A DNA stretch of 64,000 nt from assembly GCF_030063355.1 (NCBI RefSeq), contig NZ_JASISZ010000028.1, positions 1 through 64,000 of the forward strand. Direction: 5' to 3'. Under the pieces are notes generated by a model, which ran no database searches, was not told the origin of the DNA, and worked only from the letters and a program-made list of their open reading frames with translations. Source of the stretch: Streptomyces sp. PH10-H1. Its GTDB lineage: Bacteria; Actinomycetota; Actinomycetes; Streptomycetales; Streptomycetaceae. This document shows positions 11,090-64,000 of the stretch, in pieces (position 1 is the stretch's first letter; every line of letters starts with the position of its first letter). Both the position numbers and the translations under genes were made by a program.

Positions 11090-11219
11090 CGCTTGCGTCC
11101 CTGTGCGCCGGGCGGCGCCCACCTGCGGTGGCGCGTGTCCTGGCCGATCAGGCGCTTGGACGACCAGTTGTCACCCCGGTTGAGTAGTGTTTGGGGCTGG
11201 GTCGAGGAGGGAGTCGCGG

Positions 11220-13505
11220 ATGACGGACGGGTTCGAGGATTTCGTTCACACCGCGACGGGCCACGCCCCTTACCCGTATCAGGCCAGGATCGCCGCCGAA
11301 GGGCTGCCCGGACTTCTCAAGGCCCCGACGGGAGCGGGCAAGACCGCCGCCGCCGTACTGCCCTGGCTCTATCGTCGTCTGGTCTCCGCGCCGGAGCGGA
11401 CGCCGCGCCGCCTGGTGTACGTGCTGCCGCAACACGCTCTCGCCGACCGGACGTTCGCGCGGATCGGCGAGTGGCTGGACCGGCTCGCGCGCGCCGACGA
11501 GGTCGGGCTGCACCTGCTCGCGGGCGCGTCGGCTCACAACGGCGTCTGGCGGCGCCATCCGGAGCGGACCGCGATTCTGGTCGGCACCCACGACATGCTG
11601 CTGAGCCGGGCGTTGATGCGCGGGTTCGCCGACGCGCGGGCGATGGCGCCGGTGTCGTACGGCCTGCTGCACACCGACACCCAGTGGGTCTTCGACGAGA
11701 TGCACCTGCTCCGCCCCGCGCTCCCGACGAGCGTCCAACTCCAGAGGCTGCGCGACCTGCTCGGCACACCCGCGCCGACCAGATCCATGTGGATGTCCTC
11801 GACCTGGGATCCGGCCGGCCCGCAGGACCCGCCGTCCACGGTGGAACTGAGCGGCGCGGACAGACAGGGTGAACTGGCCGTACGGCTGAACGCGGTCCGG
11901 CGGATCAGACAGCTGGAAGCCGAACCCGGGCACTACATCCAGGAACTCGCCCAGGCCCTCAACACGGCGCATGTCCCGGGGACTCAGACCGTCGCCGTGC
12001 TCAACACCGTTGAGCGAGCGCGGGCACTGTACCGCGCGCTGCGGGAGGCTGCGCCCGACCGGGACGTCACGCTGATCCACTCGCGTTTCCGCGCCGCCGA
12101 ACACCGAAGCCGGATGGCGGATCTCGGTGAGGCGCAACGCGACCGGGTCATCGTCGCCACGCAGGGGCTGGAAGCCGGGACCGACCTCTCCAGCCGTACC
12201 CTCCTGACCGAGCTCGCGCCATGGAGCTCGATCGTGCAGCGCGCGGGCCGCTGCAACCGCGACGGCGAACACCCCCAGGGGGCGGACCTGCTGTGGTGCA
12301 GGCCCCCGACCGGTGATCCCGACGCGGAGGCATCCGCGCGGTGGCTCACCGCGCACGAGGGCCAGGCGGTCACGTCCGCGCAACTGCAGGACGCGCGGAT
12401 CAGCCAGTACACCGCGCCACGCCAGGCGCTGGGCCAAAGCGATCTGCTGGAGCTCTTCGACACTGCCGCCGACCCGCAGGGTACGGACGTCAGCCGCTGG
12501 ATCTGCGACGCCGCCGACCTCACGATGCTGGTCGCCTGGCGCAGTTGGGAGTCGGGGGAGCCCTCCGACGAAGAACCCCATCCGGGCCGTGACGAGCTCT
12601 GCCAGGTTCCGCTCGCCGACGTGCGGCAGCTGCTCGACGGCCGCGCCTGGCTGAGGGACCGGCTGGACGGCCACTGGCGGCGGGCGGTGGCCGGGGATCT
12701 CCATCCTGGCGAGACGCTGCTGCTGGACGCCCAGTACGGCGGCTACCTCCCCGACGAGGGCTGGGCCCCCGAGAGCCGTACGCCCGTAACGCCTGGCCCC
12801 GGATCACCCGATTCGCAGACCTTCGCCTGCACCCATTGGGTCAGCCTCGACCAGCACCTCATGGAGACCGAGGACGAGGCGCGCAAGCTCATCGACGCTC
12901 TGCCCGGCCTCTCCCCGGAGCAGCAGGAGGCCGTCGCCCGGGCGGCTCGCTACCACGACCTCGGCAAATGTCATGAGGTGTTCCAGGAGATGCTGCGAGC
13001 GGGCGGCGGCGACCCGCCGGGCGGTCTGCTGGCCAAGTCCAAGGCCCCTTACAGCACCGGCCGTTCCAGCCGGCCGTACTTCCGGCACGAGCTGGTCAGC
13101 GCGCTGCTGCTGATGCACGGCGACCACTGGCACCGCGATCCCGGGCACCGTGACGGGGCTGATCACCCGCTGGTGACCTATCTGGCCGCCGCGCATCACG
13201 GCAGAGTGAGGATCTCGGTGCGCCCACAGGGTGAGGAAGCACCGCTGCTCCTGGGCGTAGGGGATGGCGACCGCACGCCGCCGGTCGAGCTGTCCACCGG
13301 CGAGCGTTTCCCCGCCCAGTCCCTGCAGACCGAGATCTTCGCGCCCGGCCCCGGGGCCGCCGGGTCATGGACGGAGCGGGCGCTGACGCTCCGCAATCGC
13401 CCCGACCTCGGGCCCTTCCGGCTCGCCTACCTCGAAACCCTCGTACGCGTCGCCGACTGGCGCTCCAGCGCCCGCCACGACGGCCCGGTCGACGGGCTCA
13501 CCTAG
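11220..13505 (+). CDS. cas3: Orphan Cas3 helicase-nuclease, type I-G (I-U)-like
   Basis: This 761-aa protein has a superfamily 2 helicase followed by a C-terminal HD nuclease, the order described for type I-G (formerly I-U) Cas3. Visible motifs are Walker A APTGAGKT (about 35-42), DEMH (about 160), the motif VI region QRAGRCNRDG (about 340), and HD elements RYHDLGK (His579-Asp580), FRHELVSALLL, AAHHGRV and a final VADWRSS. In a working system Cas3 is recruited by Cascade and degrades target DNA. No cas5, cas6, cas7, cas8, cas1, cas2 or repeat array is near: upstream is RNase H and downstream DoxX. ATG 11220 has GGAGG at 11206-11210 and is preferred to GTG 11187. All motifs look intact, so it may have a stand-alone job or act with a distant locus. 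Confidence 0.8.
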   Translation: MTDGFEDFVHTATGHAPYPYQARIAAEGLPGLLKAPTGAGKTAAAVLPWLYRRLVSAPERTPRRLVYVLPQHALADRTFARIGEWLDRLARADEVGLHLLAGASAHNGVWRRHPERTAILVGTHDMLLSRALMRGFADARAMAPVSYGLLHTDTQWVFDEMHLLRPALPTSVQLQRLRDLLGTPAPTRSMWMSSTWDPAGPQDPPSTVELSGADRQGELAVRLNAVRRIRQLEAEPGHYIQELAQALNTAHVPGTQTVAVLNTVERARALYRALREAAPDRDVTLIHSRFRAAEHRSRMADLGEAQRDRVIVATQGLEAGTDLSSRTLLTELAPWSSIVQRAGRCNRDGEHPQGADLLWCRPPTGDPDAEASARWLTAHEGQAVTSAQLQDARISQYTAPRQALGQSDLLELFDTAADPQGTDVSRWICDAADLTMLVAWRSWESGEPSDEEPHPGRDELCQVPLADVRQLLDGRAWLRDRLDGHWRRAVAGDLHPGETLLLDAQYGGYLPDEGWAPESRTPVTPGPGSPDSQTFACTHWVSLDQHLMETEDEARKLIDALPGLSPEQQEAVARAARYHDLGKCHEVFQEMLRAGGGDPPGGLLAKSKAPYSTGRSSRPYFRHELVSALLLMHGDHWHRDPGHRDGADHPLVTYLAAAHHGRVRISVRPQGEEAPLLLGVGDGDRTPPVELSTGERFPAQSLQTEIFAPGPGAAGSWTERALTLRNRPDLGPFRLAYLETLVRVADWRSSARHDGPVDGLT

Positions 13506-46930: not shown

Positions 46931-48010
46931 TCAGCAGCTCAGGTTGTTGCCTGCCGGGACGCCGAGGATCTGGACGAAGCGCTGGTAGGCGTCGATACGG
47001 CTCTGGACCTGGGCGGGGTTGCCGCCGTTGCATTCGATGCTGCCGTTGATGCTGCGGATGGTCTCACCGAAACCGGCACTGTTGACCATGGCGTTGTGCG
47101 GGGTCATGGTGCCGGGGCCGTTCTGGGTGTTCCAGTACCACAGGCCGGTCTTCCAGGCGACGGAGGCGTCGGTCTCGACGAGGGACGGGTTGTGGAGCAG
47201 GTCGATGCCCAGGGCGTCGCCGGCAGCCTTGTAGTTGAAGTTCCAGCTGAGCTGGATGGGGCCGCGCCCGTAATACGCGGACTGGCCGGCGGGGCAGCCG
47301 TAGGACTGGCTCGCGTCGCAATAGTGCGGGTAGTTGGCGGTGTTCTGCTCGACGATGTAGACGAGTCCGCCGGTCTCGTGGCTGACGTTGGCGAGGAACG
47401 CGGCGGCTTCCTGCCGCTTGACGGTGTCGCTGCCGGTGTTGGCGAAGCCGGGGTACGCGCTGAGGGCGGCGGTCAGACCGCTGTAGGTGTAGAACGAGTT
47501 GCGGCTCGGGAACATCTGGTTGAACTGGGCCTCGCTGACGGCGAATCCGCCCTGGCTGGGGGGAGGCGTGGTCGGTGCCCCGCTACAGGTGTACGGCTCC
47601 CAGTACCAGGTGCTGATGACCGGGTCGTAGCCCGGGTTGTCGTGCTCGGCCCGGTACAGGTTGCCGTCGGAGTACTTGACGACGTCACCGGTGACGTAGG
47701 CCCGGCCCGCGACCCAGGCAGGGTAGTCGCACGACCCCGAACCGCCGCCGGTTCCCGGGCCCGAGGTGCCGCAGGCACCTGAGTCGGCCCAGACGGCGGC
47801 GCTGCCGGGTGTCTCATTCTGGGTCCACCATTTCGCAGACCAGTTATGACCGCTGTACGACGCGGACAGTCCGCCGGTGTACACCGTCGACGCGTTCCAG
47901 GGGGAGGCGCATTCGGCGGCGGACGCGGTGGACGCCAAGGGCACGAGGACCGCCAGTCCGACGGCGACGATCAGTGCGGTGAGGAATGCCATGATCCGTT
48001 GTCTCGACAT
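46931..48010 (-). CDS. Secreted GH19 chitinase with two chitin-binding modules
   Basis: The 359-aa enzyme has a signal peptide (RIMAFLTALIVAVGLAVLVP, cut after ASA), two ChiA-type CBM5/12 modules (ASPWNASTVYTGGLSASYSG and YPAWVAGRAYVTGDVVKYSD) and a GH19 catalytic domain with catalytic Glu in ANVSHETGGL and the substrate cleft motif GRGPIQLSWNFNYKAAGDAL. It cleaves chitin by an inverting mechanism and is active on fungal walls. Transcription is expected to be induced by chitooligosaccharides through the operator at 48065-48096. Confidence 0.95.
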   Translation of the reverse strand: MSRQRIMAFLTALIVAVGLAVLVPLASTASAAECASPWNASTVYTGGLSASYSGHNWSAKWWTQNETPGSAAVWADSGACGTSGPGTGGGSGSCDYPAWVAGRAYVTGDVVKYSDGNLYRAEHDNPGYDPVISTWYWEPYTCSGAPTTPPPSQGGFAVSEAQFNQMFPSRNSFYTYSGLTAALSAYPGFANTGSDTVKRQEAAAFLANVSHETGGLVYIVEQNTANYPHYCDASQSYGCPAGQSAYYGRGPIQLSWNFNYKAAGDALGIDLLHNPSLVETDASVAWKTGLWYWNTQNGPGTMTPHNAMVNSAGFGETIRSINGSIECNGGNPAQVQSRIDAYQRFVQILGVPAGNNLSC

Positions 48011-49864: not shown

Positions 49865-50551
49865 TTAGAGGCGGCGCAGGACCGCAACGACCTTGCCGAG
49901 GATGGTCGCATCGTCGCCGGCGATGGGCTGGTAGGCGTCGTTGTGGGGATGCAGCCACACATGGCCGTCCTCGCGGCGGAAGCGCTTGACGGTGGCCTCG
50001 CCGTCCAGCAGGGCGGCGACGATGTCGCCGTTGTCCGCCACGTCCTGCCGTCGCACGGTGACCCAGTCGCCCGGCAGGAGATGGGCCCCGATCATGGAGT
50101 CGCCGACCACTTCCAGGGCGAACAGCTCGCCGCCGCCCACCAGTTGGCGGGAGAGCGTGAGGATGTCCTCCACGGACTCCTCGGCGAGGATCGGTGTGCC
50201 CGCCGCGATGCGTCCGAGGAGGGGGACGCGCACGGTGGGTGAGGGGGAAGCGGCGACGCTGAGGGCGTTCTCACTCGGCGCAGCGGAGCGGACCTGGTAG
50301 GCGCGGGGCCGGTGCGGGTCGCGTACCAGGAAGCCCTTGCTCTCCAGGACCATGAGCTGATGGGCGACCGATGAGGTGCTTCGCAGGCCTACGGCGGCGC
50401 CGATCTCCCGCATCGACGGCGGGTAGCCGCGGGTGCGGACGCTGTCCTCGATCGCGGCGACGATCTGCTCCTGGCGCACGGTCAGTCCGGTCCCGTTGGA
50501 TCGGGTCCCGGGGGGCCGTCCCAGGCGGCTCGGTCGCGTGGTGCCGTCCAT
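49865..50551 (-). CDS. lexA: LexA-type repressor
   Basis: The 228-aa protein has the LexA N-terminal wHTH ([23 protein letters not shown]), cleavage region [12 protein letters not shown] with the Ala-Gly scissile bond, catalytic Ser in [17 protein letters not shown], and Lys in [11 protein letters not shown]. LexA represses SOS genes and self-cleaves with RecA filaments. ATG 50551 follows AAGGAGG. No LexA-type box was found in the 200 bases upstream, which would be expected for autoregulation, so this may be a second, differently controlled copy. Confidence 0.9.
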
Positions 50552-50755
50552 GTCGGCCTCCTTCGGCTTCTTGATCGGACACACACCGTAACCCTGCGCC
50601 CGCGCGGTAACCAAACAAACTTGCGAAAAATATTCCTCGATCCGATCCGATCCGTCGCGGCGCGGGGGAATCCCGGCGGAGGGGAGCCGGTGTCCGGGGG
50701 CAGCGAGATTCATCCGTGTGCCGTCGATGCCTTCACCGCCCGACGCTCACTGCTT

Positions 50756-51141
50756 GTGACGACGATCTACGTACTCGATGGCAGCCTGATCCATACCCTG
50801 GAGGACTTCTGGCAGGTGATGGGCGAAGCGGTCAACGGCCCCGGGGGTTACTTCGGGAAGAATCTCGACGCCTTCAACGACTGCCTCCGTGGCGGCTTCG
50901 GAACACCCGACGATGGCGACTTCAGGTCGAATGGCGCGACCATGAGGCGTCTCAGCGGGCACTCGGCTACCCGGATACCGTCCGTCAATTGGAGATACGA
51001 CTGGGGCGCTGTCACCCGACGAGTCGTGGGCGGGTCGCGGAGGAGCTGGCCGCCGCGAAGAGCGGGCGAGGCCCGACGGTCTTCGACTGGCTGACCAAAA
51101 TTTTCGAAGGCCCGGTCCCCGGCGCGTTGCGGCTTCGATGA
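50756..51141 (+). pseudogene. Frameshifted barstar-family inhibitor gene
   Basis: From GTG 50756 the frame reads TTIYVLDGSLIHTLEDFWQV then GGYFGKNLDAFNDCLRGGFG TPDDGDF, a clear barstar pattern. Near 50930 it must gain one base to continue as VEWRDHEASQRALGYPDTVR and SGRGPTVFDWLTKIFEG, ending at 51141. Barstars inhibit barnase-type ribonucleases; no barnase gene is adjacent. One missing base is the only lesion, so this may be recent or a sequencing error. The 50552-50755 spacer has nothing else recognised. Confidence 0.8.
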
Positions 51142-51241: not shown

Positions 51242-54181
51242 TCAGCCGCGCGGGGGAGCGGTCATCGCGGCGAGGACGGTGCGCCAGTCCTGGTCGTCCT
51301 GTCGCTTGAGCACGGTCGCGAGCCGGTCCGCCCGGTAGTGCCAGTGATGGTCCAGATCGCGCTCCGCATCGGGCGCGAACCGTATCGTGCTCGTGCTGCC
51401 CAGCAGCCGGGTCAGTTCGGCGGCGAGATCGGACCAGGAGACGTGGCCGCTGATGGCGTTGGCCACTCCGTGGACCGGCTCGTCGAGGCAACCGGCCAGT
51501 GCGCGGGCCAGAGCGTCGCCGTGCACCCAGGCGGGCCCGTACCAGGGGTGTGCTCCGGCTGCCGGGTCGGGCAGTACGAGCGGCTCCCCGGCCAGGGCAG
51601 CCTGGAACAACGTTCCGGTCGCTCCCCACCGCAGCTGCTCGCGCAGCCGGTCGTGCGCACCCCAGACGAGGGGGGAGCGCACGGCGCTGGCGCCGCCACG
51701 GCCCTCGGTCCCGGCGGCCCGCATCAGCAGCCGCTCGCAGCCCACTTTGGCCAGGCCGTACGGGGTCAGCCGGCCGTGCGGGGCCGCGCCCTCGGGGACC
51801 TCGGCGGAGGACGGTTCCCCGTAGGCGTCCACGCTGCTGACGAAGACGAACGGTCCGCGCCGCCACGCGTCCACCAGCACCCGCATCGCGGCGATGTCCA
51901 CCTCCGGCCGGGTGAAGGTGCAGGCCGCATGGATCACGGCGTCCACCCCTGAGCAGGCGGCGCGCAGGCTGTCGAGGTCGGACAGGTCGCCCTCGTACAC
52001 CTCGACGCCGTCTGCGGCGACCCGGTGTGCCGACTCCGGCCGTGCCAGCGCGCGCACCGGCCGGCCGAGCCTGGCGAGCTCACGCAGCACGAACGAGCCC
52101 ACACCGCCCGTGCCGCCGGTCACCAGCACGGTGCCCTCGCGGGTGGACGCGGACCGGCGGGCGGGCCGAGGTGTGGCGACGCCGGCGGCGTCGCGTTCGG
52201 ACTGCCGGGTATCCAGCAGCGCGTTCAGGGCGCGGGGCGTGCGCCGCTCCATGATGTCCAGGCCGGTGAGCGGCAGCAGTAGCCGTCCGCGCAGCCGTTC
52301 GGCGAGCTGGACCGCCATGAGGGAGTGGCCGCCCAGGGCGAAGAAGTCGTCGTCCGGTGCCGGTTCCTGGCCCAGCAGTTCGGCGAAAGCGCCGAGAACC
52401 GTGCGGGCACGTCCGGTATCGAACGGTTGCACCGAGGGGGGTGGCGAGAGGGCGGGCGCGGGGAGGCCGGGCAGCCGGCCGGTGTCGACGGTTCCTCCGG
52501 GCGTCAACGGCAGGGCGTCGAGCAGGGTGACCGCCGCGGGGACGGCGGACGGTGCCAGTGCGGAGCGCAGATGGGCGCGGAGCTGATGCGCTCCGGCCCC
52601 GGCGACGCCCCGGGGGACGGCCCACGCCAGCGGCGGCCGGTCCGTGAACTCCAGCACCACCGCGTCCGCGACATCGGGGTGTGCCCGCAGGAGTTCCTCG
52701 GCCGTTCGGGGTGCCGCGCCTGGGGCTGCTGCGGCCGGCTGTACGGGGAGGCGGGCGAGGGTCAGTTGCGGGTCGGCCGCGACCGCGCTCAGCAGGTGTG
52801 CGAATCCGTCGGCCAGCCGCGCGCCCGCTCCGGCGTCCAGCGCGGTGGCGCTGTGCTGGACGAGGCAGGCCGGGGTCGTCGTCTCCTCGACGCCGAAGGA
52901 CAGGTCGAACTTGGTCGTGCCCAGATCGATGTCGACCGCCGCTGCGGTCGTTCCCGGCAGCCGCAGGACGGTCGGTTCCCGCAGTACATCGGCGGTGACG
53001 CGCACCAGCGGCATGCCGTCGGCGTTCCGGGCGGCCGCGCCGAGCCGCTCGACGATCAGGTCGAACGGGACGTCCCGGTGCTCCTGGGCCATGAGCAGCG
53101 CCTCTTTCACCCGGTCCACGAGGGTCAGGAAGCCGGGGTCGCCCGACAGGTCGACGCGTACGGGCAGGGTGTTGACGCACAGCCCGACGAGGCCGCGCAT
53201 CGCCGTACCGGTGCGGTGGCTGCTCGCACAGCCGATGAGCAGGTCGTTCTCACCGGTCGCGCGGTGCAGCGCCGCGAAGGACGCGGCGAGGACGACGGTG
53301 AACAGGGTCGTACTGCGCTCGCGCGCCAAGGTGCGCAGGCCCGGCAGTACGCCGTCCGGCAGAGGAACGGTGTGGGTGCGCCCGGTCCCGCCTGCCGGGC
53401 CGGGTCCTGTCCTGGCGGCATCAGGGCCTGTCCGGGCGGAACCGTCGTCGGCGCGGGCCGGTCCGGGCAGCGATACGGGGGTCGCTCCGGCGAGCCGTCG
53501 CGCCCAGTGCTCCAGGCCCTCGGCGAGCCGTCCCGCCGACTCCTGCTCCCGGCGGGCGAACTCGGCGTACTGGGGGGCCGGTTCGAGCCGGTCCTGGCGG
53601 CCTTCGCGGGCGGCGGCGTACAGCTCCGCCAGTTCCGCGGCCACCGTCTCCAGCGATCCGCCGTCCACCGCGATGTGATGGAGGGTCAGCAGCACCGTGT
53701 GGTCATGCTCCGCGTGCCGCAGGACGAGCACGCGCAGGGCAGGGCCGGCCGCGAGGTCGAACGGGCGCGCCGCCTCCCGGGCCAGCTGATCCGTGCCGTC
53801 GCCTACGGCGTCCGTGGTGGCGACGGGTACCGGGGCCGGGGCTTCGACCTGCTGGAACGGCTCGCCCTCGTGGTGGCCGTACCGGGTCCGCAGGATTTCG
53901 TGCCGGCTCACCAGCGCGGTCAGGGCGGCGGCGAGGGTGTCCACGTCGAGCGGGCCGCCGACCCGGGTGGCGAACGGCACGCTGTAGAGCGCCCCGCCCA
54001 GTCGGAGGCGGTCCATCAGCCACATGCGGCGCTGGGCGTGCGAGAGCGGCACCGGTCCGGTGCCGGCGGCGGGAGTCCCGGCCGGCGGCTCCGCGGCCGG
54101 GCGGTTGCGGGCGCGCGAGCGGGCCGCGCGCAGGAGTGCTTCCTGCCGGGCGGTTGCTGTGGGGCGGGAGTCGGTGGTCAT
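51242..54181 (-). CDS. Terminal NRPS: C - (A C-terminal subdomain only) - T - SDR reductase
   Basis: In this 979-aa protein the condensation domain (about 45-470) has LTLHHIAVDGGS. Next, where an A domain should be, only a part like the A C-terminal subdomain remains (about 480-590: HPDVADAVVLEFTDRPPLAW and LLDALPLTPGGTVDTGRLPG), without any A3-A7 core. A carrier domain follows (FFALGGHSLMAVQ, Ser about 619) and then an extended SDR (about 680-979: VLVTGGTGGVGSFVLRELAR, FVFVSSVDAYGEP, YGLAKVGCERLL). The SDR probably releases the product reductively, replacing a thioesterase. The A gap means the carrier is loaded in trans. The ATG overlaps the upstream stop. Confidence 0.85.
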   Translation of the reverse strand: MTTDSRPTATARQEALLRAARSRARNRPAAEPPAGTPAAGTGPVPLSHAQRRMWLMDRLRLGGALYSVPFATRVGGPLDVDTLAAALTALVSRHEILRTRYGHHEGEPFQQVEAPAPVPVATTDAVGDGTDQLAREAARPFDLAAGPALRVLVLRHAEHDHTVLLTLHHIAVDGGSLETVAAELAELYAAAREGRQDRLEPAPQYAEFARREQESAGRLAEGLEHWARRLAGATPVSLPGPARADDGSARTGPDAARTGPGPAGGTGRTHTVPLPDGVLPGLRTLARERSTTLFTVVLAASFAALHRATGENDLLIGCASSHRTGTAMRGLVGLCVNTLPVRVDLSGDPGFLTLVDRVKEALLMAQEHRDVPFDLIVERLGAAARNADGMPLVRVTADVLREPTVLRLPGTTAAAVDIDLGTTKFDLSFGVEETTTPACLVQHSATALDAGAGARLADGFAHLLSAVAADPQLTLARLPVQPAAAAPGAAPRTAEELLRAHPDVADAVVLEFTDRPPLAWAVPRGVAGAGAHQLRAHLRSALAPSAVPAAVTLLDALPLTPGGTVDTGRLPGLPAPALSPPPSVQPFDTGRARTVLGAFAELLGQEPAPDDDFFALGGHSLMAVQLAERLRGRLLLPLTGLDIMERRTPRALNALLDTRQSERDAAGVATPRPARRSASTREGTVLVTGGTGGVGSFVLRELARLGRPVRALARPESAHRVAADGVEVYEGDLSDLDSLRAACSGVDAVIHAACTFTRPEVDIAAMRVLVDAWRRGPFVFVSSVDAYGEPSSAEVPEGAAPHGRLTPYGLAKVGCERLLMRAAGTEGRGGASAVRSPLVWGAHDRLREQLRWGATGTLFQAALAGEPLVLPDPAAGAHPWYGPAWVHGDALARALAGCLDEPVHGVANAISGHVSWSDLAAELTRLLGSTSTIRFAPDAERDLDHHWHYRADRLATVLKRQDDQDWRTVLAAMTAPPRG

Positions 54182-56070
54182 CGGGCGTTCCCTGTCGGCA
54201 GGTCGAGAGCGGGGTCGAGGTCGTCGCCGAGGTCGTCGCCGAGGTCGTCCGCGAGGTTGGCGAGCAGGACGCGTTCCAGGACCGCGGCATGCGCGGCCAC
54301 GGTCGGGGTGAGGAAGAATTCAGCGAGCGGCAGATCCACTCCGAGGTCCTTGCGCAGGTCGTCGACGACGGACAGGGCGAGCAGGGACTGCCCGCCCAGG
54401 GCGATGAAGTCGGCGTCCGGGTCGGTGACCTCCATGCCGAGCGACAGGCTCCACGCCCGGGCCACGGCTTGTTCGATCGGGCTGAGTTCGGCGCTGCCCG
54501 CGCCGCTGGTGGCCTCGGTGACGGCAGCGTCGCCGAGGTCGGCCAGGGCCCGCCGGTCCACCTTGCCCGAGGCGGTCAGCGGCAGGCGGTCCACCACCGT
54601 CCACTCGTCGGGAACGAGATGGGCGGGCAGCCGCCCGGCGAGCCTGGCGCGCAGGGTCTCCGTGCGCGGCACCGGCCCCGGTGCGGGGACGAGGAAGGCC
54701 GCGAGCCGGACGTCGTCGCCGGTCCGGTGGCGTACCACCACCGCGGCGTCGTCCACATCGGGCTCCTCGCGCAGGGCGTACTCGATCTCCCCCGGCTCGA
54801 TTCGGAATCCGCGGACCTTCACTTGGTCGTCCGCGCGCCCGTGGAAGTCCAGGATGCCGTCGGGGCGGGCGGAGACGAGGTCGCCGCTGCGGTAGAGGCG
54901 TCCGTGGGCCGGATGGTCGACGAAGCGCTCTGCGGTCAGTTCTGGCAGGCCGACGTATCCGTTCGCGAGCCGGGTGCCGCCGATCCACAACTCGCCCTGG
55001 GTGCCTGCGGGTACGGGTTCTCCGTCCGCGTCCAGGAGATGGGCCGTGGCTCCGGCTACCGGACGTCCGATCGGGATCTGGCCGTCGCAGTCGGCGTCCG
55101 TGACCCTGTGGGCGGTGGCGAAGGTCGTCGTCTCGGTCGGGCCGTAGCCGTTGACCAGTTCCAGCCAGGGAAAGGCCCGCAGGACGACGCGGGCCTGCTG
55201 GGCCGCCATCGCCTCCCCGCCGACGACCACGGTGCGCAGAGCGCCGAACAGCCGCGACCGGCGCGCGGCGAGCTGGTGGAAGAGCGCCGTGGTGAAGAAG
55301 GCGACAGTGACACCGTGCCGCTCCACCTGGTGCGCCAGATCCTCCAGCGAGGGCCGCTCCGCACTGCAGACCGCGACGGCCGCACCATTGGCGAGCGCCG
55401 ACCACACCTCGAAAGTGGACGCGTCGAAGGTGGCCGGGGAGTGGAACAGCACCCGGTCGCGCGGGGTGATCGTCGCGTAGTCGGGAGCGGTCACCAGGGC
55501 GGCGATACCGCCGTGGGTGACGGCCACGCCCTTGGGGCGCCCGGTCGAGCCGGAGGTGAACATCACGAACGCGACACCGTCCGGGGCGTACGCGGCGGGG
55601 CCGGGGGTGCCGGTGAGCGCGGACCGCGTATGCGGCACGGCCCACTGGGACGGCAGCACCATCGCCCGGTCGGCGGGGATGCCTGTGGCTTCCAGGAGTT
55701 TGCTGTCGCCCAGGGTCAGTGTCGCCGCCGTGTCGGCGAGCATCGCGGCGGTACGCGGCCACGGGTGCGCCGGGTCCAGCGGAACGCAGGTCGCTCCGGC
55801 CCACCACAGGGCGAGTTGGGCTATGACCGTGCGAGCGGAGCGCGGGACGAGCAACGCAACCCGGTCGCCGGGACGCACCCCACGGTTGTGCAGCTCGGCG
55901 GCCAACCGCTGTGCGGATAAGAGGAGTTGCTCATACGTCAGGGTGGTTTCGCCGTCCGTCACGGCCAGCGCGTGCGGGGTCCGTTCGGCATGGCGGGCGA
56001 CCTGGGCGATCACGCCGCCGTCCGGGCGGTGGTCCGCCTCGGTTGCCGGCTGAGTGCGGTCGGTGGGCAC
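54178..56070 (-). CDS. NRPS A-T didomain
   Basis: The 630-aa protein has an adenylation domain (about 25-500) with motifs FVMFTSGSTGRPKGVAVTHG (A3), NGYGPTETTTFATAHRV (A5), YRSGDLV (A7) and KVRGFRIEPGEIE (A8), then a carrier domain (FIALGGQSLLALS, Ser about 560). The specificity-pocket read-out I derive by eye is D-A-F-F-V-G-G-T-F-K, near the valine-type code, so a small branched hydrophobic residue is likely. GTG 56070 has GGAAGGAA at 56077-56084 and is preferred to ATG 56181, which adds a low-complexity N-terminus. The C-terminus ends in a Asp-Asp-Leu-Gly repeat (12-bp tandem units near 54220-54250). Confidence 0.88.
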   Translation of the reverse strand: MPTDRTQPATEADHRPDGGVIAQVARHAERTPHALAVTDGETTLTYEQLLLSAQRLAAELHNRGVRPGDRVALLVPRSARTVIAQLALWWAGATCVPLDPAHPWPRTAAMLADTAATLTLGDSKLLEATGIPADRAMVLPSQWAVPHTRSALTGTPGPAAYAPDGVAFVMFTSGSTGRPKGVAVTHGGIAALVTAPDYATITPRDRVLFHSPATFDASTFEVWSALANGAAVAVCSAERPSLEDLAHQVERHGVTVAFFTTALFHQLAARRSRLFGALRTVVVGGEAMAAQQARVVLRAFPWLELVNGYGPTETTTFATAHRVTDADCDGQIPIGRPVAGATAHLLDADGEPVPAGTQGELWIGGTRLANGYVGLPELTAERFVDHPAHGRLYRSGDLVSARPDGILDFHGRADDQVKVRGFRIEPGEIEYALREEPDVDDAAVVVRHRTGDDVRLAAFLVPAPGPVPRTETLRARLAGRLPAHLVPDEWTVVDRLPLTASGKVDRRALADLGDAAVTEATSGAGSAELSPIEQAVARAWSLSLGMEVTDPDADFIALGGQSLLALSVVDDLRKDLGVDLPLAEFFLTPTVAAHAAVLERVLLANLADDLGDDLGDDLDPALDLPTGNAR

Positions 56071-56182
56071 GGGCTGTTCCTTCCGAAGGACGGGGGCCGC
56101 CTGCGGGGCGGTGGACGCGGTGCGGTGGTTCGCGGTGGACGCGGTGGACGCGGTGGGGTGGTTCCCGGTCGGGTCCGGCATG

Positions 56183-58147
56183 TCAGGCCGCCGTTCCGGA
56201 GGTGGCGGAACGGCGTGCCGTGATGAGCGCCGCCACGGCCCTGAGGTCCGGTTGGCGCAGGACCTCGGGAGCCCGCAGGCGCACCCCGCTGCCGGCTTCG
56301 ATGGCGGTCAGCAGCCGCGCGGCGGCGAGCGAGTTGCCGCCGGCCTCGGTGAAGTTGTCCGTCAGCCGCAGCCGCGGATGGCCGAGCAGGTCGCGGCAGA
56401 GCCGCAGAACGAGCCGTTCACCGTCATCGCCAGGTTCATCGCCGGGTTCATCGCCGGGTTCACCGCTGGGACCATCGCCGGTCGCGCCGCCGGTCTCCTG
56501 CCTTGTGTCGGCGGGCGGTTCCTGGGGCGCCGCGAGAAGCGCGCCGCGGTCCACCTTTCCGTTCGCGTCGAGCGGGAAGTCGGCGACGATGCGTACGGTC
56601 GAGGGGACGGCCTGCTCCGGCAGCCACGAACGTACGGCGTCCAGCAGTTGGGCCGTGCTGGCGTCCGCGCCGGGGGCGGTGCGGACGAAGGCGGCGAGCC
56701 GGGCGTCACCGTCCGGGGTACGCCGCACGGCGACCACCGCGTTGGCGACGCGGGGATCGTGTTCGAACGCGGCCTCGACCTCGGCGGGCTCGATCCGCAC
56801 CCCGCTGATCTTGACCTGGTCGTCCAGCCGGCCGAGGAACTCCAGATGTCCGTCGGGTCGCATGCGCACGCGGTCACCGGTCCGGTAGACGCGGTCCACG
56901 CCTGCCGCGCCCGCGACGTCCACTCCCTGCGGCGCCGTGGTGAACCGCTGGGCCGTCAGCGCCTCGTCGAGGTAGCCGAGCGCCAGCAGCCTTCCGCCGA
57001 TGCGCAGTTCACCGGCCTCGCCGTACGGCAGGAGGCGGCCCTGCTCGTCGGTGACGCAGACACTCACGCCGGGGACCGGGCGGCCGATGGGCGGTGCGCC
57101 GTCGGCCCGGTCGGTGTCCGTGGGGCGCATGGTGAACGTGGTGGTGACCACCGTCGCCTCGGCCGGACCGTAGGCGTTGTGGACGGTCGCCGTGACACCG
57201 GGCGCCGGGCGGCGGCGCATCCGGTCGCCGCCGACGATCAGGTGGCGCAGCACCAGGTCCTGCGGCCAGGGCCGGTCCAGGACCGGCTCGGCCATCGGGG
57301 TCGCGGCGACCGAGACCGTGACACCCGCGTCACGCCACCAGTCGGTGAGCGCACAAGGGTCCCAGCGGACCGCGTCGGGGGCCGGGCACAGGGCCGCCCC
57401 GCTGGTCAGGCCCGCCCACAGCTCCATGACATGCGGGTCGAACGCCACCCCGATCAGGAGGCTCTGCCGCTCGCCGGGACCGACGCCGGTCTCCGGCCGG
57501 TACCAGTCGAGGAGCGCGCTGAGCGCGGGTTCGGCGACCGCGACGGCTTTGGGGGTTCCGGTGGAGCCCGAGGTGAGGACGGCGTAGAAGGCGTTCCCAG
57601 GTGCGCCGAGCGCGTCGGCGCGGGACGGGGTGAACGCGCCGACGGCGGTCGCGGGCGCGTTGGCGCCCCCGACGGGGACGGGCAGGGGCAGGTGTTCACC
57701 CGCCCGGTGCGCCTCGGGCAGCAGACCGGGATCACCGATCAGGCAGACCACCCGCAGATTCTCGGTGACCGCGGCGATCCGCCGTTCCCCCGGGCGCGGC
57801 CCGAGCGGCAGATAGACGGCTCCGAGCCGGGCCAGCGCGACGGCCACCGCGACCAGCGCGGCCGACCGGTCCAGGCAGACTCCGACGAGGTCGCCGGGCC
57901 GGACCCGGTCGCGCAGCGTCACGGCCACCACGTCGGCGGCCGCGTCCAGTTCGGCGTAGGTCCATCGATGGGCACCGTCCAGGACGGCGGGGGCGTCGGG
58001 AGCGCTGCGCACCCAGCTCTCGTAGCGGGAGAGCACGGTCGCGCCGGAGGGATCCATGGGCAGCGGTTCCGTGGCGGCGACACTCAGGGCGAGCGGGCGC
58101 GCGGGGACGGTGTCGTCGGCTGCGGAGCGGTTCATGAGGCCGGTCAT
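56183..58147 (-). CDS. NRPS A-T didomain, unusual specificity pocket
   Basis: The 654-aa A-T protein has an A domain (about 45-540: YAVLTSGSTGTPKAVAVAEP, NAYGPAEATVVTTTF, YRTGDRVRMRPDGHLEFLGR, KISGVRIEPAEVE), a linker of Gly-Asp-Glu-Pro repeats, and a carrier (FTEAGGNSLAAAR, Ser about 604). My by-eye pocket read-out is D-P-M-V-I-G-A-V-V-K, which matches no common code I know. The Gly-Asn-Ser carrier motif varies from the usual Gly-His-Ser. It is co-translated with the upstream C-A-T gene (ATGA) and followed after 112 bases by the next gene's GTG. Confidence 0.88.
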   Translation of the reverse strand: MTGLMNRSAADDTVPARPLALSVAATEPLPMDPSGATVLSRYESWVRSAPDAPAVLDGAHRWTYAELDAAADVVAVTLRDRVRPGDLVGVCLDRSAALVAVAVALARLGAVYLPLGPRPGERRIAAVTENLRVVCLIGDPGLLPEAHRAGEHLPLPVPVGGANAPATAVGAFTPSRADALGAPGNAFYAVLTSGSTGTPKAVAVAEPALSALLDWYRPETGVGPGERQSLLIGVAFDPHVMELWAGLTSGAALCPAPDAVRWDPCALTDWWRDAGVTVSVAATPMAEPVLDRPWPQDLVLRHLIVGGDRMRRRPAPGVTATVHNAYGPAEATVVTTTFTMRPTDTDRADGAPPIGRPVPGVSVCVTDEQGRLLPYGEAGELRIGGRLLALGYLDEALTAQRFTTAPQGVDVAGAAGVDRVYRTGDRVRMRPDGHLEFLGRLDDQVKISGVRIEPAEVEAAFEHDPRVANAVVAVRRTPDGDARLAAFVRTAPGADASTAQLLDAVRSWLPEQAVPSTVRIVADFPLDANGKVDRGALLAAPQEPPADTRQETGGATGDGPSGEPGDEPGDEPGDDGERLVLRLCRDLLGHPRLRLTDNFTEAGGNSLAAARLLTAIEAGSGVRLRAPEVLRQPDLRAVAALITARRSATSGTAA

Positions 58148-61100
58148 CGTGACTCCGAGATTTCCGAAAGGGCGGGCGTCGTGCCGGCGGCGGTGAGGGC
58201 ACGGGCCTGATCGGCCAGTACCGGGTTCTCGAAGAGCACCCGCAACGGCGGCCGGCTGCCGAGCCGCGGCTCCAGCCAGGCGGCGAGATGGGCGGCGAGC
58301 AGGGAGTGCCCGCCGATCCGGAAGAAGTGGGAGGTCTCGGTGAAGCTCATGTGCCCGAGCACCGCGCGCCAGCCTTCGGCCAGCAGGGCCACCTCCGGTG
58401 CGGAGAAGTCCGCAGGGGCTTGCGCGTCCGGCCGCGGCCGGAGGGGGGCCAGGGCGGCGGCCGTACGGCCCAGCGATCCCCGGTCCGGCTTGCCGCCGGC
58501 CAGCGTCGGCATCGTGTCCAGCGCCACCCACCGGCCGGGAACCATCGCGGCCGGCAGACGCCGGCTCAGTCCGGCGTGCAGCGCCTCCTGATCCGGCTCG
58601 GCGGTGCCTTCGAGGAAGCCGATCAGCAGTGGCCCGCCAGGAGCCTCGCGGTCCAGCACCACGGCGCACGACCTGCCGCCGAGGAACGCGGAGGCCGCCG
58701 CCTCGATCTCTTCCAGTTCGATGCGGTAGCCGCGCAGCTTGACCTGGTTGTCGCGGCGGCCGAGGAAGCACAGCCGCCCGTCCAGGTCCCGGTAGCCGAG
58801 GTCCCCGGTCAGGTAGACCCGTTCGCCGCCGAGGGCTTCGACCCGTACGAAGCGGGCGGCCGTCGTCTCCGCATTGCCGACGTATCCCTGGGCCAGTCCA
58901 GCGCCGCCGATGGCGAGTTCGCCGACCGCGCCGGCCGGCAACGGCCGCAAGCCCTCGTCCAGTACGTGCGCCCGCTCGCCGGGCAGCTCCGTGCCCAGCG
59001 GGATCTCGGCACCGTCGGCCAGGTCGTCACCGGTGATCTCATGGACCGTGGAGCTGATCGACGCCTCGGTCACGCCGTACACGTTCAGGACCGTGGCACT
59101 GGTGTCGTCCAGGAACGCGCGCAGCGCGTCCGCGGGGATGCGTTCGCCGCCGAGCACCACCAGGCGCGGCGCCCAGCGGCCGTCGCGCAGCGCTGGTCGC
59201 AGGTCCTCGCGGGTGGCGAGGAAGTAACTGGTGGGCAGATTGGCGACGGTGACACGGGCGGCGGCGAGCAGGTCGGCCAGTTCGGCGCCGGTGGGAACCT
59301 CGCGGTCCGGTACGACCAGGCAGGCACCGGCGTGCAGCGACGGCAGCACTTCCTCCAGCGCCACGTCGAAGGACGGCTGGGCGAAGAGCAGCACCCGGTC
59401 GTCGGTCCGCAGGGCGAATCGGGCGGCGGCGCCGGTCAGATGGTTCTCCAGCGCGGGGCGGCCGACCGCGACGGGCTTGGGTATGCCCGTGGAACCGGAG
59501 GTGTGGATGATGTACGCGGCGCCCTCCACGGTGCGCGCCGCGTGGGCTCGGGGGAAGTCGGGGCTGTCGACGAGGGCCACCGGGCGGCGGTCGGTGTCGA
59601 GGCGCGCGGCTCCGTCGGTGGTGGTCAGTACGAGTGCCGGGTCGAGCCGGTCCAGCAGCGTCGCGAGGCGGTCGGCCGGGTCCCGGGGTGAGAGCGGGCA
59701 GTACACGGCGCCGGTGCGCAGGCAGGCCAGCAGCGCGACGACGCAGTCCGCGCCACGGGGCAGGACGGTCGCCAACGGCTGTCCGGCGGTGATGCCACAG
59801 GCGCGCAGCCGCTCCGCGAGGCTGGTGACCCGCTCGTCCAGGTCACCGTAGGTCAGCTGCCGGGCGCCGATGAGCAGCGCGGGCAGTGACGGGTCGTGCC
59901 GGGCGGCCGGGTCCAGCAGGGTGGCGCTGCCGGCGGCCTCCGGCAGCGGCGGTTCCGGGGCCGGTGCGGCGGGTGCCGGGCCGAGCGCGGAGAGCGGCGC
60001 GGAGGGGTCAGCCAGGTAGGACCGGAGCAGGTCCAGCAGGCGGGTGGCGAGCAGCTCGGCCGTGTCCTCGCCGAACAGGTCGGCGTCGTAGTCCCACACC
60101 AGCGTCATGCCGGGGGCGCCCTGGCGGGGGCTCACGCCCCGGCGGTCGTCGGGCAGCAGGACGAGGTCGAGGTCGAACCGGGTGGTTCCGGTGTTGAACC
60201 CTTCGAACAGCGTCACATCCAGACCGGGGACGTCGATCTCCGGGAGTACCGCGTCGTGGGCGCTGAACATGACGCTGAACAGGGGGTTGTCGGATCCCGA
60301 GGTGTGCAGTCCGAGCGCCCGCGTCAGCTCCTGCACCGGCACGTCCTGGTGGGGGAGCGCCCGGATGAGGGTGTCGGTGACCTCGTCCATCACATCGTCG
60401 GCCGAGGCGTTCGGGTCCAGCCTCAGGCGCAGCGGGATGGTGTTGACGAACATTCCGACGGTTTCCTCGAAACCGCGCGGGCGGTTGCCGACGGCGGTGC
60501 CGATGACCACTTCCGGCCGGCCGCTGTGCCGTCGCAGCAGTTCGGCGAAGAGGCCGAGCAGTGCGGAGAACGGGGTGAGGCCGCGGTCGCGGGCGTGGGC
60601 GCGCAGCCGTAGCGCCAGGTCCGCTCCGATGGACTGCCTCAACTGGCCGCCGTGGTGCCGCCTGCGCGCACCCGGCCGGGTGAGGCCGGGCAGCGGCAGG
60701 TCGAATGCGGCGGTGCGCAGTTCGTCCTGCCAGTACGCGAGGCTGCGGGTCCGTGCGGCCGCCGCGTCCGGTGCCGCTGCCGCGTGCACATGCTCCTCGT
60801 AGGAGGGCGTGACGGGGCGCGGTCCGATGGCCTCGCCGAGCACGTGGGCGCGGTAGGCGGAGAAGATGTCGCTCAGGACGATCGCGAACGAGTGGCCGTC
60901 GTGCACCAGGTGGTGCTCGACGTGGATCAGCCGGTGCTGATCCGGCGCGAGGCGGGCCAGTGTCCAGCGCAGCAGTGGGGCCCGGCTGGTGTCCAGGGGT
61001 GTCTCGGCCTCGGTGCGCAGCAGCTCGGCGAAGGCCGCCTCGGGGTCGTCGCGGCCGGAAAGGTCCACGGTCCGTAAGCGCGGGGCGCAGGAATCGACCA

Positions 61101-61311
61101 CGCGTTGGGCGGGTACGCCGTCGGCGGTGGGCGCCAGTTCCAGGCGCAGGCCGGGGTGGCGTTCGAGCGTCGCGGTCAGACCGCGGCGCAGTGCGTCCTC
61201 ATCGAGGGTGCCCCACATGTCGAGCGCGGCGGTGAAGTTGTAGGCGCGGCTGCCGGGTTGCAGTTGTTCGTGCAGCCAGACGATCTGTTGTGAGGTGGAG
61301 AGCGGAAACAT
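58144..61311 (-). CDS. NRPS C-A-T module
   Basis: This 1055-aa complete module has a C domain (about 1-430, active site VEHHLVHDGHS), an A domain (about 455-940: YIIHTSGSTGIPKPVAVGRP, NVYGVTEASISSTVHE, YLTGDLGYRDLDGRLCFLGR, KLRGYRIELEEIE) and a carrier (FFRIGGHSLLAAH, Ser about 1002). The pocket read-out by eye is D-V-E-N-V-G-V-I-S-K, somewhat like codes for ornithine derivatives, at low confidence. A5 has Val for Pro (YGVTE). There is no epimerase or methyltransferase domain. Confidence 0.9.
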   Translation of the reverse strand: MFPLSTSQQIVWLHEQLQPGSRAYNFTAALDMWGTLDEDALRRGLTATLERHPGLRLELAPTADGVPAQRVVDSCAPRLRTVDLSGRDDPEAAFAELLRTEAETPLDTSRAPLLRWTLARLAPDQHRLIHVEHHLVHDGHSFAIVLSDIFSAYRAHVLGEAIGPRPVTPSYEEHVHAAAAPDAAAARTRSLAYWQDELRTAAFDLPLPGLTRPGARRRHHGGQLRQSIGADLALRLRAHARDRGLTPFSALLGLFAELLRRHSGRPEVVIGTAVGNRPRGFEETVGMFVNTIPLRLRLDPNASADDVMDEVTDTLIRALPHQDVPVQELTRALGLHTSGSDNPLFSVMFSAHDAVLPEIDVPGLDVTLFEGFNTGTTRFDLDLVLLPDDRRGVSPRQGAPGMTLVWDYDADLFGEDTAELLATRLLDLLRSYLADPSAPLSALGPAPAAPAPEPPLPEAAGSATLLDPAARHDPSLPALLIGARQLTYGDLDERVTSLAERLRACGITAGQPLATVLPRGADCVVALLACLRTGAVYCPLSPRDPADRLATLLDRLDPALVLTTTDGAARLDTDRRPVALVDSPDFPRAHAARTVEGAAYIIHTSGSTGIPKPVAVGRPALENHLTGAAARFALRTDDRVLLFAQPSFDVALEEVLPSLHAGACLVVPDREVPTGAELADLLAAARVTVANLPTSYFLATREDLRPALRDGRWAPRLVVLGGERIPADALRAFLDDTSATVLNVYGVTEASISSTVHEITGDDLADGAEIPLGTELPGERAHVLDEGLRPLPAGAVGELAIGGAGLAQGYVGNAETTAARFVRVEALGGERVYLTGDLGYRDLDGRLCFLGRRDNQVKLRGYRIELEEIEAAASAFLGGRSCAVVLDREAPGGPLLIGFLEGTAEPDQEALHAGLSRRLPAAMVPGRWVALDTMPTLAGGKPDRGSLGRTAAALAPLRPRPDAQAPADFSAPEVALLAEGWRAVLGHMSFTETSHFFRIGGHSLLAAHLAAWLEPRLGSRPPLRVLFENPVLADQARALTAAGTTPALSEISESR

Positions 61312-61474: not shown

Positions 61475-62884
61475 TCAGTTCTCGGTGCCTGAGACGGCGG
61501 CCGGGGCCGCCCGGGCCGCCAGGCGGGCGCGGACGAAACCGGTCAGCGCGTCGAAGGCTCCCTGTGCGGCGTCGTCGCCGTGGAGCGCGCGGTCCCAGAC
61601 CATCCGCAGGTGCAGGTCGTCGCCGTGACTGGCGGAGACCGCGAACGGGGCGCGTACCGCACGGCCGTCCACGTTCACCTCACGCCCCTCCACCCCTCCC
61701 AGCCTCAGCGGGGGGCGACGGCTCAGGTCCTCGACGGTGAGCAGCCCGTCCAGGCGCCCCGACCAGGAGGCCGCACCGGCCGTCCGGGCGGCATGCACCA
61801 CCTCGTCGAACGGGGTGTCCGCCCGGTCGAGGTCGTCCCACCAGTGGGCCGTGGTGGTGTCATCGCCCGCCGGGCCGCCCGGCGAGTCGCCCACCACGCC
61901 GCCGGACGGTGTGCCGGTCGCGGCCGGGAAGACGACCGTGTTGAGGAAGCAGCCGAGGACGGGTTGCGCCGCGGCTGGTCTGCCGCCCCACGGATACCCC
62001 ATCGCGACGACGTGGCCGGGCCCGTGCCACGCACGGACGGCGGCCCGGCAGGCATCGAGCAGCTCAGGGAACGGGACCGCCGCGGCGATTCCGGCCGGTA
62101 CGGGGAGGTGGGCTTCGACGGCTCCGGTGGGCAGCTCCGCAGTGGCGCCCGCCGCCTGGCCTGTCATGCCTGCCACGGCTGACGGGCCGCTCGCGGCTTG
62201 CGCGCCGGCCTTGGGCGCGTCACGCACATGGCGCAGCCGTTCGCTCCAGTAGGCCAGCGCCGACGCACCACTCGCCCGCTCCTCCGCGGTGAGTTGCATC
62301 GATACGGCCTCCCGGTAGGCGCGCAGCTCCTGCGCCACGCTGCCCGGGGCCACGTCCTGGGGGCCGAGCCGGTCGCGGTAGGCAGCGCTCAGTTCCCCGG
62401 TGATCCGGGACAGCGACTGGCCGTCGCACGCGGCGTGGTCCAGGGCGACAGCCAGTACCTCCTCGGTCGCGTCCGCGCCGTCGTCGGCCAGGTAGAGCCG
62501 CAGCGGAGCGCCGTCCGCGGTCCAGGACCGCAGCGTTCTGCGCAGTGCGGCGGCGCCGTTCTCGCCGGGCGCGCACCCGATCCGTTCCACGGGCACGTCG
62601 GCTTCGCCGAGCCGCTGTACGGGCGTTCCGCGCACCACCAGTGAACGTGCGCGCAGGGCGGGGTGGAGTGCGGCCAGTGACCGTGCCGCGTCCCGCAGTC
62701 GTGGCAGATCGACGGTGCCGCGCGGGAAGGCGAAGAACAGTGGCACGACATCCGGCCGTCCGGCCGGGTCGAGTAAGCGTACGAGGACGAACCGGCGCTG
62801 GGCGCCGGTGACAGGCAGCAGGTCGCCGCCGGTGTCCAGCCGCTGGTACCGGGCGAGGTACTGGCTGGTGACGCTGGGTTGCAC
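61475..62884 (-). CDS. Free-standing NRPS condensation domain protein
   Basis: The 469-aa protein is a lone C domain. The active site reads ALDHAACDGQS, with Asp in place of the first His of HHxxxDG but the catalytic second His and Asp-Gly kept. Later C-domain parts are seen (MGYPWGGRPAAAQPVLGCFL NTV, DRADTPFDEVVHAA). It may do the first or last acyl transfer, or act with the A-T proteins in trans. GTG 62884 follows AAGGAA. It lies 163 bases upstream of the C-A-T gene. Confidence 0.85.
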   Translation of the reverse strand: MQPSVTSQYLARYQRLDTGGDLLPVTGAQRRFVLVRLLDPAGRPDVVPLFFAFPRGTVDLPRLRDAARSLAALHPALRARSLVVRGTPVQRLGEADVPVERIGCAPGENGAAALRRTLRSWTADGAPLRLYLADDGADATEEVLAVALDHAACDGQSLSRITGELSAAYRDRLGPQDVAPGSVAQELRAYREAVSMQLTAEERASGASALAYWSERLRHVRDAPKAGAQAASGPSAVAGMTGQAAGATAELPTGAVEAHLPVPAGIAAAVPFPELLDACRAAVRAWHGPGHVVAMGYPWGGRPAAAQPVLGCFLNTVVFPAATGTPSGGVVGDSPGGPAGDDTTTAHWWDDLDRADTPFDEVVHAARTAGAASWSGRLDGLLTVEDLSRRPPLRLGGVEGREVNVDGRAVRAPFAVSASHGDDLHLRMVWDRALHGDDAAQGAFDALTGFVRARLAARAAPAAVSGTEN

Positions 62885-62959: not shown

Positions 62960-64000
62960 TCAGCCGACAGAGGTCGCCTCGGTCGCCGGGTCACCGGCGG
63001 TCCGCTCGGCATCGGGCCCGCTCGTGGGCGGTGCGGCGGGCAGGTCGCGCATGCGGCGCAGCGGCGACATCAGCAGGGTCAGCGGCGCGAGGAGGACTCC
63101 CACGGCGCAGACCCAGACGGCGGCGCGTGGTGAGGCGGCGTCCGCGACGGCGCCGCCGATCAGGGCGCCGAGCGGCATGGTGCCCCAGACGAGGAAGCGC
63201 ATGGTGGCGTTCATCCGGCCGAGCAGGCCCGGCGGGCACAAGGTCTGGCGGAAGCTCACCTGGGCGACGTTGTAGACCACGCCGCCGAAGGAGACCACGC
63301 CCAGACCGATGGCGAACAGGGCGGCCGCGGCCCCCGCACCTGAAAGCGGCCAGAGCAGCGCGAACGGGCCCGTGACCACCACGGACAGCCAGATGATGCG
63401 GGCCTGTCCCAGAGCGCGGGCCAGGCGTCCCGCCATGAGCGCGCCGGCCAGACCACCGATCGCCGACGCCGACAGCATCAGGCCGATCGCGCCCGGGTTC
63501 AGGCCGAGTACCCGCACCAGGTAGACGGTCTGCACGGCCATCAGCATCACGGCGAAGAAGTTGCTCAATCCCGTCGTGGCGGCGATGACGCGCAGCAGCG
63601 GCTGGCGCAGGACGAACCGCAGCCCCTCGCCGATCTCGCCGCGCAGCGACGAGCCCTGCACCGCTTGGGGTGCGGGCTCGGAGCGGCGGATGAAGAGCAG
63701 GAACAGTCCCGAGAGCGCGTAACCAACCGCGTCGGCGACGATCGCCAGATGGGCCCCGACGAGCTGGACGAGAGCACCACCGAGGCCGGGTCCGGCGACG
63801 TGCGCGGAGGACCGGACGGTTTCCAGTGCGCCATTTCCGGCCACCAGTTGTGGGGCGGGCAGTAGTTGGGGCAGATAGCTCTGGTGGGCGACGTCGAAGA
63901 ACACCGTGGCGACACCGGTGATCAGAGCCACGGCATAGAGCTGCGCCATCGTCAGTACGTCCGCGACGGCCGCGGCCGGCACGCTGATCATCGCGATGGC
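62960..64000 (-). CDS. MFS exporter, 5' end cut by the window
   Basis: The frame is open to the window edge and encodes at least 346 residues of a major-facilitator protein with about nine hydrophobic segments. The pattern (VATVFFDVAHQSYLPQLLPA, GLGGALVQLVGAHLAIVADA, FRQTLCPPGLLGRMNATMRF) is that of the EntS-like siderophore and peptide exporter group. Its place before the NRPS genes suggests export of the peptide product. It shares the strand with the cluster and precedes the free-standing C gene by 75 bases. Confidence 0.9.
   Translation of the reverse strand, partial: AIAMISVPAAAVADVLTMAQLYAVALITGVATVFFDVAHQSYLPQLLPAPQLVAGNGALETVRSSAHVAGPGLGGALVQLVGAHLAIVADAVGYALSGLFLLFIRRSEPAPQAVQGSSLRGEIGEGLRFVLRQPLLRVIAATTGLSNFFAVMLMAVQTVYLVRVLGLNPGAIGLMLSASAIGGLAGALMAGRLARALGQARIIWLSVVVTGPFALLWPLSGAGAAAALFAIGLGVVSFGGVVYNVAQVSFRQTLCPPGLLGRMNATMRFLVWGTMPLGALIGGAVADAASPRAAVWVCAVGVLLAPLTLLMSPLRRMRDLPAAPPTSGPDAERTAGDPATEATSVG

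Follow-up and report, generated by a model that had tools for sequence, protein, structure and literature searches.

How does an NRPS module that lacks an adenylation (A) core obtain its amino acid, and what is the role of the piece of A domain that it keeps? The question is raised by the last gene of a five-gene NRPS operon in a 64,000-nucleotide stretch of Streptomyces sp. PH10-H1 (contig NZ_JASISZ010000028.1, positions 1 to 64,000; here called the window). We put the probability at about 85% that this operon encodes a ureido tetrapeptide-aldehyde synthetase of the antipain/chymostatin/omicsynin type, in which the carrier of the terminal protein (T4) is charged in trans and the SDR domain releases the aldehyde. 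The coordinates of the terminal gene were exact, and its features are as follows.

51242..54181, minus strand: terminal NRPS protein with the layout C-A*-T-SDR (A* being the A remnant), OmnF-like, 979 aa (open reading frame, Pfam and alignment)
52748..54052, minus strand: C domain, residues 44-478, HHIAVDG intact (Pfam and motif)
52463..52714, minus strand: remnant of the A C-terminal subdomain, residues 490-573, A10 Lys replaced by Thr (Pfam, alignment and model)
52202..52408, minus strand: T (carrier) domain, approximately residues 592-660, GGHSL (Pfam and motif)
51257..52135, minus strand: extended-SDR reductase domain, residues 683-975 (Pfam and alignment)

The Pfam matches of the terminal protein were, in order, Condensation (44-478, 2.3e-67), AMP-binding_C (495-562, 1.3e-07), PP-binding (594-652) and Epimerase (685-870), and the adenylation core, AMP-binding (PF00501), was not listed in a search run to E 1. 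The initial annotation had described C and T domains flanking a core-less remnant of the A C-terminal subdomain, and the Pfam matches, the model of the remnant and the spacing of the domains bear this out. A hidden divergent core was rejected, because a complete core would lengthen the protein by roughly 350-400 aa (the core of the neighbouring A-T protein has 348 aa by Pfam) and the C-to-T distance of 109-174 or 28-49 aa in the window protein and its relatives is too short to hold one. The SDR domain has intact TGGTGGVG, SS and YGLAK motifs and scored 66.9 bits with Epimerase versus 11.8 bits with NAD_binding_4, which is below the cut-off of 20.1 and led us to reject a classical NRPS R domain. 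The terminal T domain is followed by an R domain of the extended-SDR type, some 300 residues long and different from classical R domains. The corresponding protein of one relative (locus L076) reached 20.5 bits with NAD_binding_4, barely above the cut-off, suggesting that short-SDR and classical R domains are not far apart.

Searched alone, the remnant matched AMP-binding_C at 2.5e-09, as did all 29 aligned remnants (the window included) in Pfam. Structure prediction, which had been proposed as a check, gave a confident fold for residues 490-573 (84 aa) modelled on their own, with a mean pLDDT of 93.7 and a pTM of 0.84. Foldseek found 103 PDB matches to this model at E up to 0.001; the best 50 of them were, by title, adenylate-forming enzymes or NRPS chains, and 8www, 6p1j, 2vsq and 1amu, among others, were matched over about 80 residues. 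Sequence searches aligned the remnant to the C-terminal part of A-domain chains, for example residues 857-933 of BmdB, where the A10 motif PLTPGGTVDT of the remnant faces LPLTPNGKLDR and a Thr stands opposite the Lys. The mean identity to the three intact subdomains encoded in the operon was 26-35%, and recent duplication from one of these sister domains was rejected as the origin of the remnant. The remnant region was also ordered in a full-length model of the terminal protein (25 sequences, pLDDT 79.2), whose pTM of 0.49 makes the relative orientation of the domains unreliable; with this model the C domain dominated among the best 50 Foldseek matches listed. We interpret the remnant as a spacer that folds and is conserved yet can be dispensed with, and that would be catalytically dead and left from an ancestral C-A-T module.

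We then analyzed relatives, which were retrieved by patterns or by the sequence of the window terminal protein. The locus search yielded 33 loci; 31 of them contain this operon, and each of its five NRPS genes was matched there (the terminal gene of L037 and the C-like gene of L033 in part, the terminal gene of L029 split). The other two were excluded from the counts, L040 being another NRPS and L041 matching weakly, in the SDR part. The C-A*-T-SDR layout was kept at 57-65% identity in all 24 aligned relatives (24 of the 31 operon loci were aligned), indicating that the A-less architecture is more than chance. Of the 67 rows in which the C-to-T spacing was measured, 62 had 109-174 aa; the rows include the window and repeats of the same genome and leave L041 (no C or T) and L037 uncounted. 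The five rows with 28-49 aa come from three genomes, L033, G356 (L048, L080) and G151 (L049, L076), all without the remnant. An intact A domain fused to the terminal protein, the other finding that could have overturned the initial annotation, occurred in none of the 67 rows, although a search seeded with the window protein could miss more distant forms, which might have an A core.

After removal of sequences that share an exact 300-residue stretch with a member of the set, 52 distinct terminal proteins remained, the window included, 49 with and three without the remnant. None of the 49 has a Lys in the A10 column (one has a gap there), and the remnant-less three have no meaningful letter at this position. 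The T-domain serine, TGxxGGVG and HHxxxD were present in all 52, one protein having A for the final G of the C-domain motif, and Tyr808 and Lys812 of the SDR domain were invariant across 25 aligned sequences. The remnant-less relatives from the three genomes keep C, T and SDR, as confirmed by Pfam for one of them. In-frame stops flagged in L049, L069 and L070 are natural gene ends, and in L071 and L075, also flagged, the alignment finished before any stop. In L029 (Streptomyces sp. SPB162, approximately 10494-13420) the terminal gene lies in two frames with the break between the remnant and the T domain, a frameshift or a sequencing error. L029, because of its broken frame, and L037, which is truncated at the contig end, were left out of the terminal-protein tree, in which node supports of 0.656 and 0.298 allow one to three losses of the remnant.

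Of 394 genomes sampled from the family, 59 have the T-SDR half, as do 6 of 394 sampled from the class. The own genome is counted in both of these overlapping samples, and one of the six belongs to another family. This genome, G151, is the sole match outside the family of the window in the class sample; it lacks the remnant and has the operon together with an acyl-CoA dehydrogenase gene, and the operon was possibly acquired by horizontal transfer.

Upstream of the terminal gene, the minus strand encodes, in this order, an MFS exporter, a stand-alone C-like protein, a C-A-T protein and two A-T proteins.

62960..64000, minus strand: MFS exporter gene, running past the window to contig position 64282
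61475..62884, minus strand: stand-alone C-like protein, motif DHAACDG with the second His kept (Pfam and motif)
58144..61311, minus strand: C-A-T protein, signature DVENVGVIS-K (Pfam and signature)
56183..58147, minus strand: A-T protein, signature DPMVIGAVV-K, start set at the ATGA overlap with the C-A-T gene
54178..56181, minus strand: A-T protein, signature DAFFVGGTF-K, with a 4-base ATGA overlap with the terminal gene

Signature residues were taken by motif position in the GrsA numbering. Clusters of the antipain/chymostatin/omicsynin type would have A domains for Phe, Arg and Val/Leu/Ile. DAFFVGGTF is plausibly Val-like, and DVENVGVIS plausibly specifies a basic residue, likely Arg. DPMVIGAVV is not known to match any signature code clearly, and we tentatively assign Phe to it by elimination. 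Across 32 sequences of each protein, the signature of the C-A-T protein always starts with DVEN, that of the first A-T protein with DP and that of the second with DAF or DGF. The A10 Lys was present in 32/32, 31/32 and 32/32 sequences of the three intact A sets; the single exception is L009, whose second A-T protein was matched in part.

An acyl-CoA dehydrogenase gene, which we take to encode a candidate arginine cyclase, was present in 10 operon loci out of the 36 that extend far enough to reveal it. These 10 group together in a single clade (support 0.991) of the tree of terminal proteins, and the window lies outside; L069 and L071, also of this clade, are too short to judge. The gene is absent from the window operon, where the 4-base overlap of the C-A-T and A-T genes leaves no room for it, and a search of the own genome found no close homologue (best match 39%). 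The dehydrogenase would be the FAD-dependent cyclase that, as a 2021 study by Cui is reported to show, forms capreomycidine on the NRPS. Since the cyclase candidate is missing, the window product probably contains no capreomycidine.

Other genes lie beyond the end of the operon. Just downstream, a Barstar-family gene (50621-51141, plus strand) matched positions 4-44 of the 96 profile positions, and Pfam at E 0.1 gave nothing for the ORF overlapping it in another frame; the Barstar gene therefore looks disrupted. A LexA repressor gene (LexA DNA-binding and Peptidase_S24; 49865-50713, minus strand) lies near the cluster end, and the window also encodes a family 19 chitinase with a CBM5/12 module (46931-48010, minus strand).

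Four T, three C or C-like and three A domains in the operon (Pfam) fit a four-residue product, and a putative ureido tetrapeptide aldehyde, antipain- or MAPI-like, is the most likely one. The omicsynin, antipain and chymostatin clusters share with the window five discrete NRPS genes, three A domains and a terminal short extended-SDR R protein (PMC12783407); they differ from it by the acyl-CoA dehydrogenase that the window operon lacks. Deletion of the R domain of omnF abolished omicsynin aldehydes and gave C-terminal acids instead, and the omicsynin strain also produces antipain and chymostatin, besides many variants that differ at positions 2 to 4 (PMC12783407). Consistent with the same identity, the operon is present in S. 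rimosus (L025), and chymostatins are reported, in the source as excerpted, from two other S. rimosus strains. Antipain and MAPI occurred together in Streptomyces extracts according to excerpts of two further reports (PMC11212599, PMC11865988); the first gives them as putative identifications, assigns both to one antipain cluster and also lists leupeptin, said to have been shown to be a non-NRPS product (PMC11212599). Livipeptin of S. lividans is likewise a peptide aldehyde whose release is thought to occur via an R domain; in contrast to the window protein, its synthetase has A, PCP and R without a C domain and a tRNA-utilizing enzyme as partner, so that the opposite domain is missing (excerpt of PMC10548850).

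The terminal gene is thus the ordinary last enzyme of a known Streptomyces family of peptide-aldehyde protease inhibitors. The initial annotation had regarded such proteins as rarely described, a view that the match to the antipain/chymostatin/omicsynin enzymes and the spread of the T-SDR half in the family do not support. The phrase 'three A domains' already implied an A-less terminal gene in print; the remnant is undiscussed in the literature examined and goes unmentioned in the main text on these clusters (PMC12783407).

How would such an assembly line work? The three A domains would activate Phe (A-T protein at 56183), Arg (C-A-T protein at 58144) and Val (A-T protein at 54178), and the three condensing domains would share the formation of one urea and two peptide bonds. 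T4, the fourth carrier, lacks an A domain within its own protein and would be charged in trans by one of the three; the terminal C domain would add the chain from the third carrier, and the SDR domain would release the tetrapeptide as an aldehyde warhead. With four carriers, three A domains and four residues, one A domain would act twice. Charging by another A domain, as the initial annotation suggested, remains the best explanation by analogy, most likely by the Arg or the Phe domain. The closest analogues are CmnI and VioI of capreomycin and viomycin synthesis, NRPS proteins that also have C and T without A; CmnI is reported, with mass data, to be charged in trans by CmnA-A1, the A domain of another module, and its N-terminal extension is reported to matter for CmnA-A1 binding (excerpt of PMC12400406). 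CmnI differs in that its T precedes C and it has no reductase, and the same excerpt reports no A remnant (PMC12400406). An attempt to find the partner from T-domain similarity was uninformative: T4 is not close to the other T domains of the cluster (28-36% mean identity), and its best match, T2, is the carrier for Val, which points to neither the Arg nor the Phe domain. Our literature search, which extended to papers other than the founding cluster papers, found no paper on the charging of an A-less terminal module, and a search on truncated A domains found none on the combined topic.

Antipain ends in argininal and MAPI in phenylalaninal. If both come from one cluster, T4 would accept either residue. 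We tentatively propose, at somewhat less than even odds, that loss of the A core turned T4 into a combinatorial slot, which yields argininal when charged by the Arg domain and phenylalaninal when charged by the Phe domain, the remnant being a C-T spacer that drifts or is lost only in the capreomycidine clade.

Selection on the remnant bears on this role. The pooled pN/pS values of the remnant, C, T and SDR were 0.433, 0.429, 0.316 and 0.276, respectively, outside the dehydrogenase clade (77 pairs with pS <0.35) and 0.601, 0.408, 0.380 and 0.311 inside it (13 pairs). Hence, the remnant evolves under constraint. Its ratio to the rest of the protein was 1.64 (bootstrap 1.24-2.15) in the clade versus 1.21 (0.97-1.53) elsewhere, and 1.37 (1.08-1.68) versus 1.24 (0.99-1.50) with pairs up to pS 0.5; as the pairs are not independent and the intervals overlap, faster evolution in the clade is at most a trend. 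The remnant could be more than a spacer and serve as a working docking platform that recruits the trans-acting A domain. Its retention in 49 of 52 distinct proteins, its predicted fold and a pN/pS close to that of the C domain outside the clade agree with this idea, which we consider unlikely, since three genomes without the remnant retain C, T and SDR and since the remnant tends, within those overlapping intervals, to outpace the rest of the protein in their clade. The docking role put forward in the initial annotation is therefore weakened. The remnant is more than just dead sequence, yet the protein can do without it, and a folded spacer is the simplest reading.

Less probable still is that the T4 residue is first loaded onto the T domain of an A-T protein and then shuttled to T4, perhaps by the stand-alone C-like protein. 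SyrB1/SyrC-type systems are a precedent, and the donor in such systems is usually a free A-T protein. Here, two of the three A domains reside on free A-T proteins, and 31 of 32 C-like sequences show the unusual motif [DE]HxxCD[GE] (the remaining one, L033, is truncated at this point). However, the second His is retained in the C-like protein, without which the third bond of a tetrapeptide would be unaccounted for, and ORF clustering (ORFs of at least 80 aa that passed a base-composition filter) found no further recurrent gene inside the operon besides the dehydrogenase and antisense ORFs. CmnI also shows that a shuttle is not always required (excerpt of PMC12400406). A decayed or misassembled A-containing module, to which the loss of both the A core and the A10 Lys might point, is refuted by conservation: 52 distinct proteins share the layout, whether they have the remnant or not, their C, T and SDR motifs are conserved, and the pooled pN/pS lies well below 1.

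Overall, our analysis favours charging of T4 in trans and suggests that, in a widespread family of pathways to protease inhibitors, the terminal module normally lacks its A core. The A domain or domains that charge T4 would decide the warhead residue and hence the protease that is hit. The lysine-less, conserved remnant and its three natural deletions provide a ready series for studying the role of an A subdomain in a non-activating module. If T4 is indeed a combinatorial slot, one small operon would give rise to inhibitors for different proteases.
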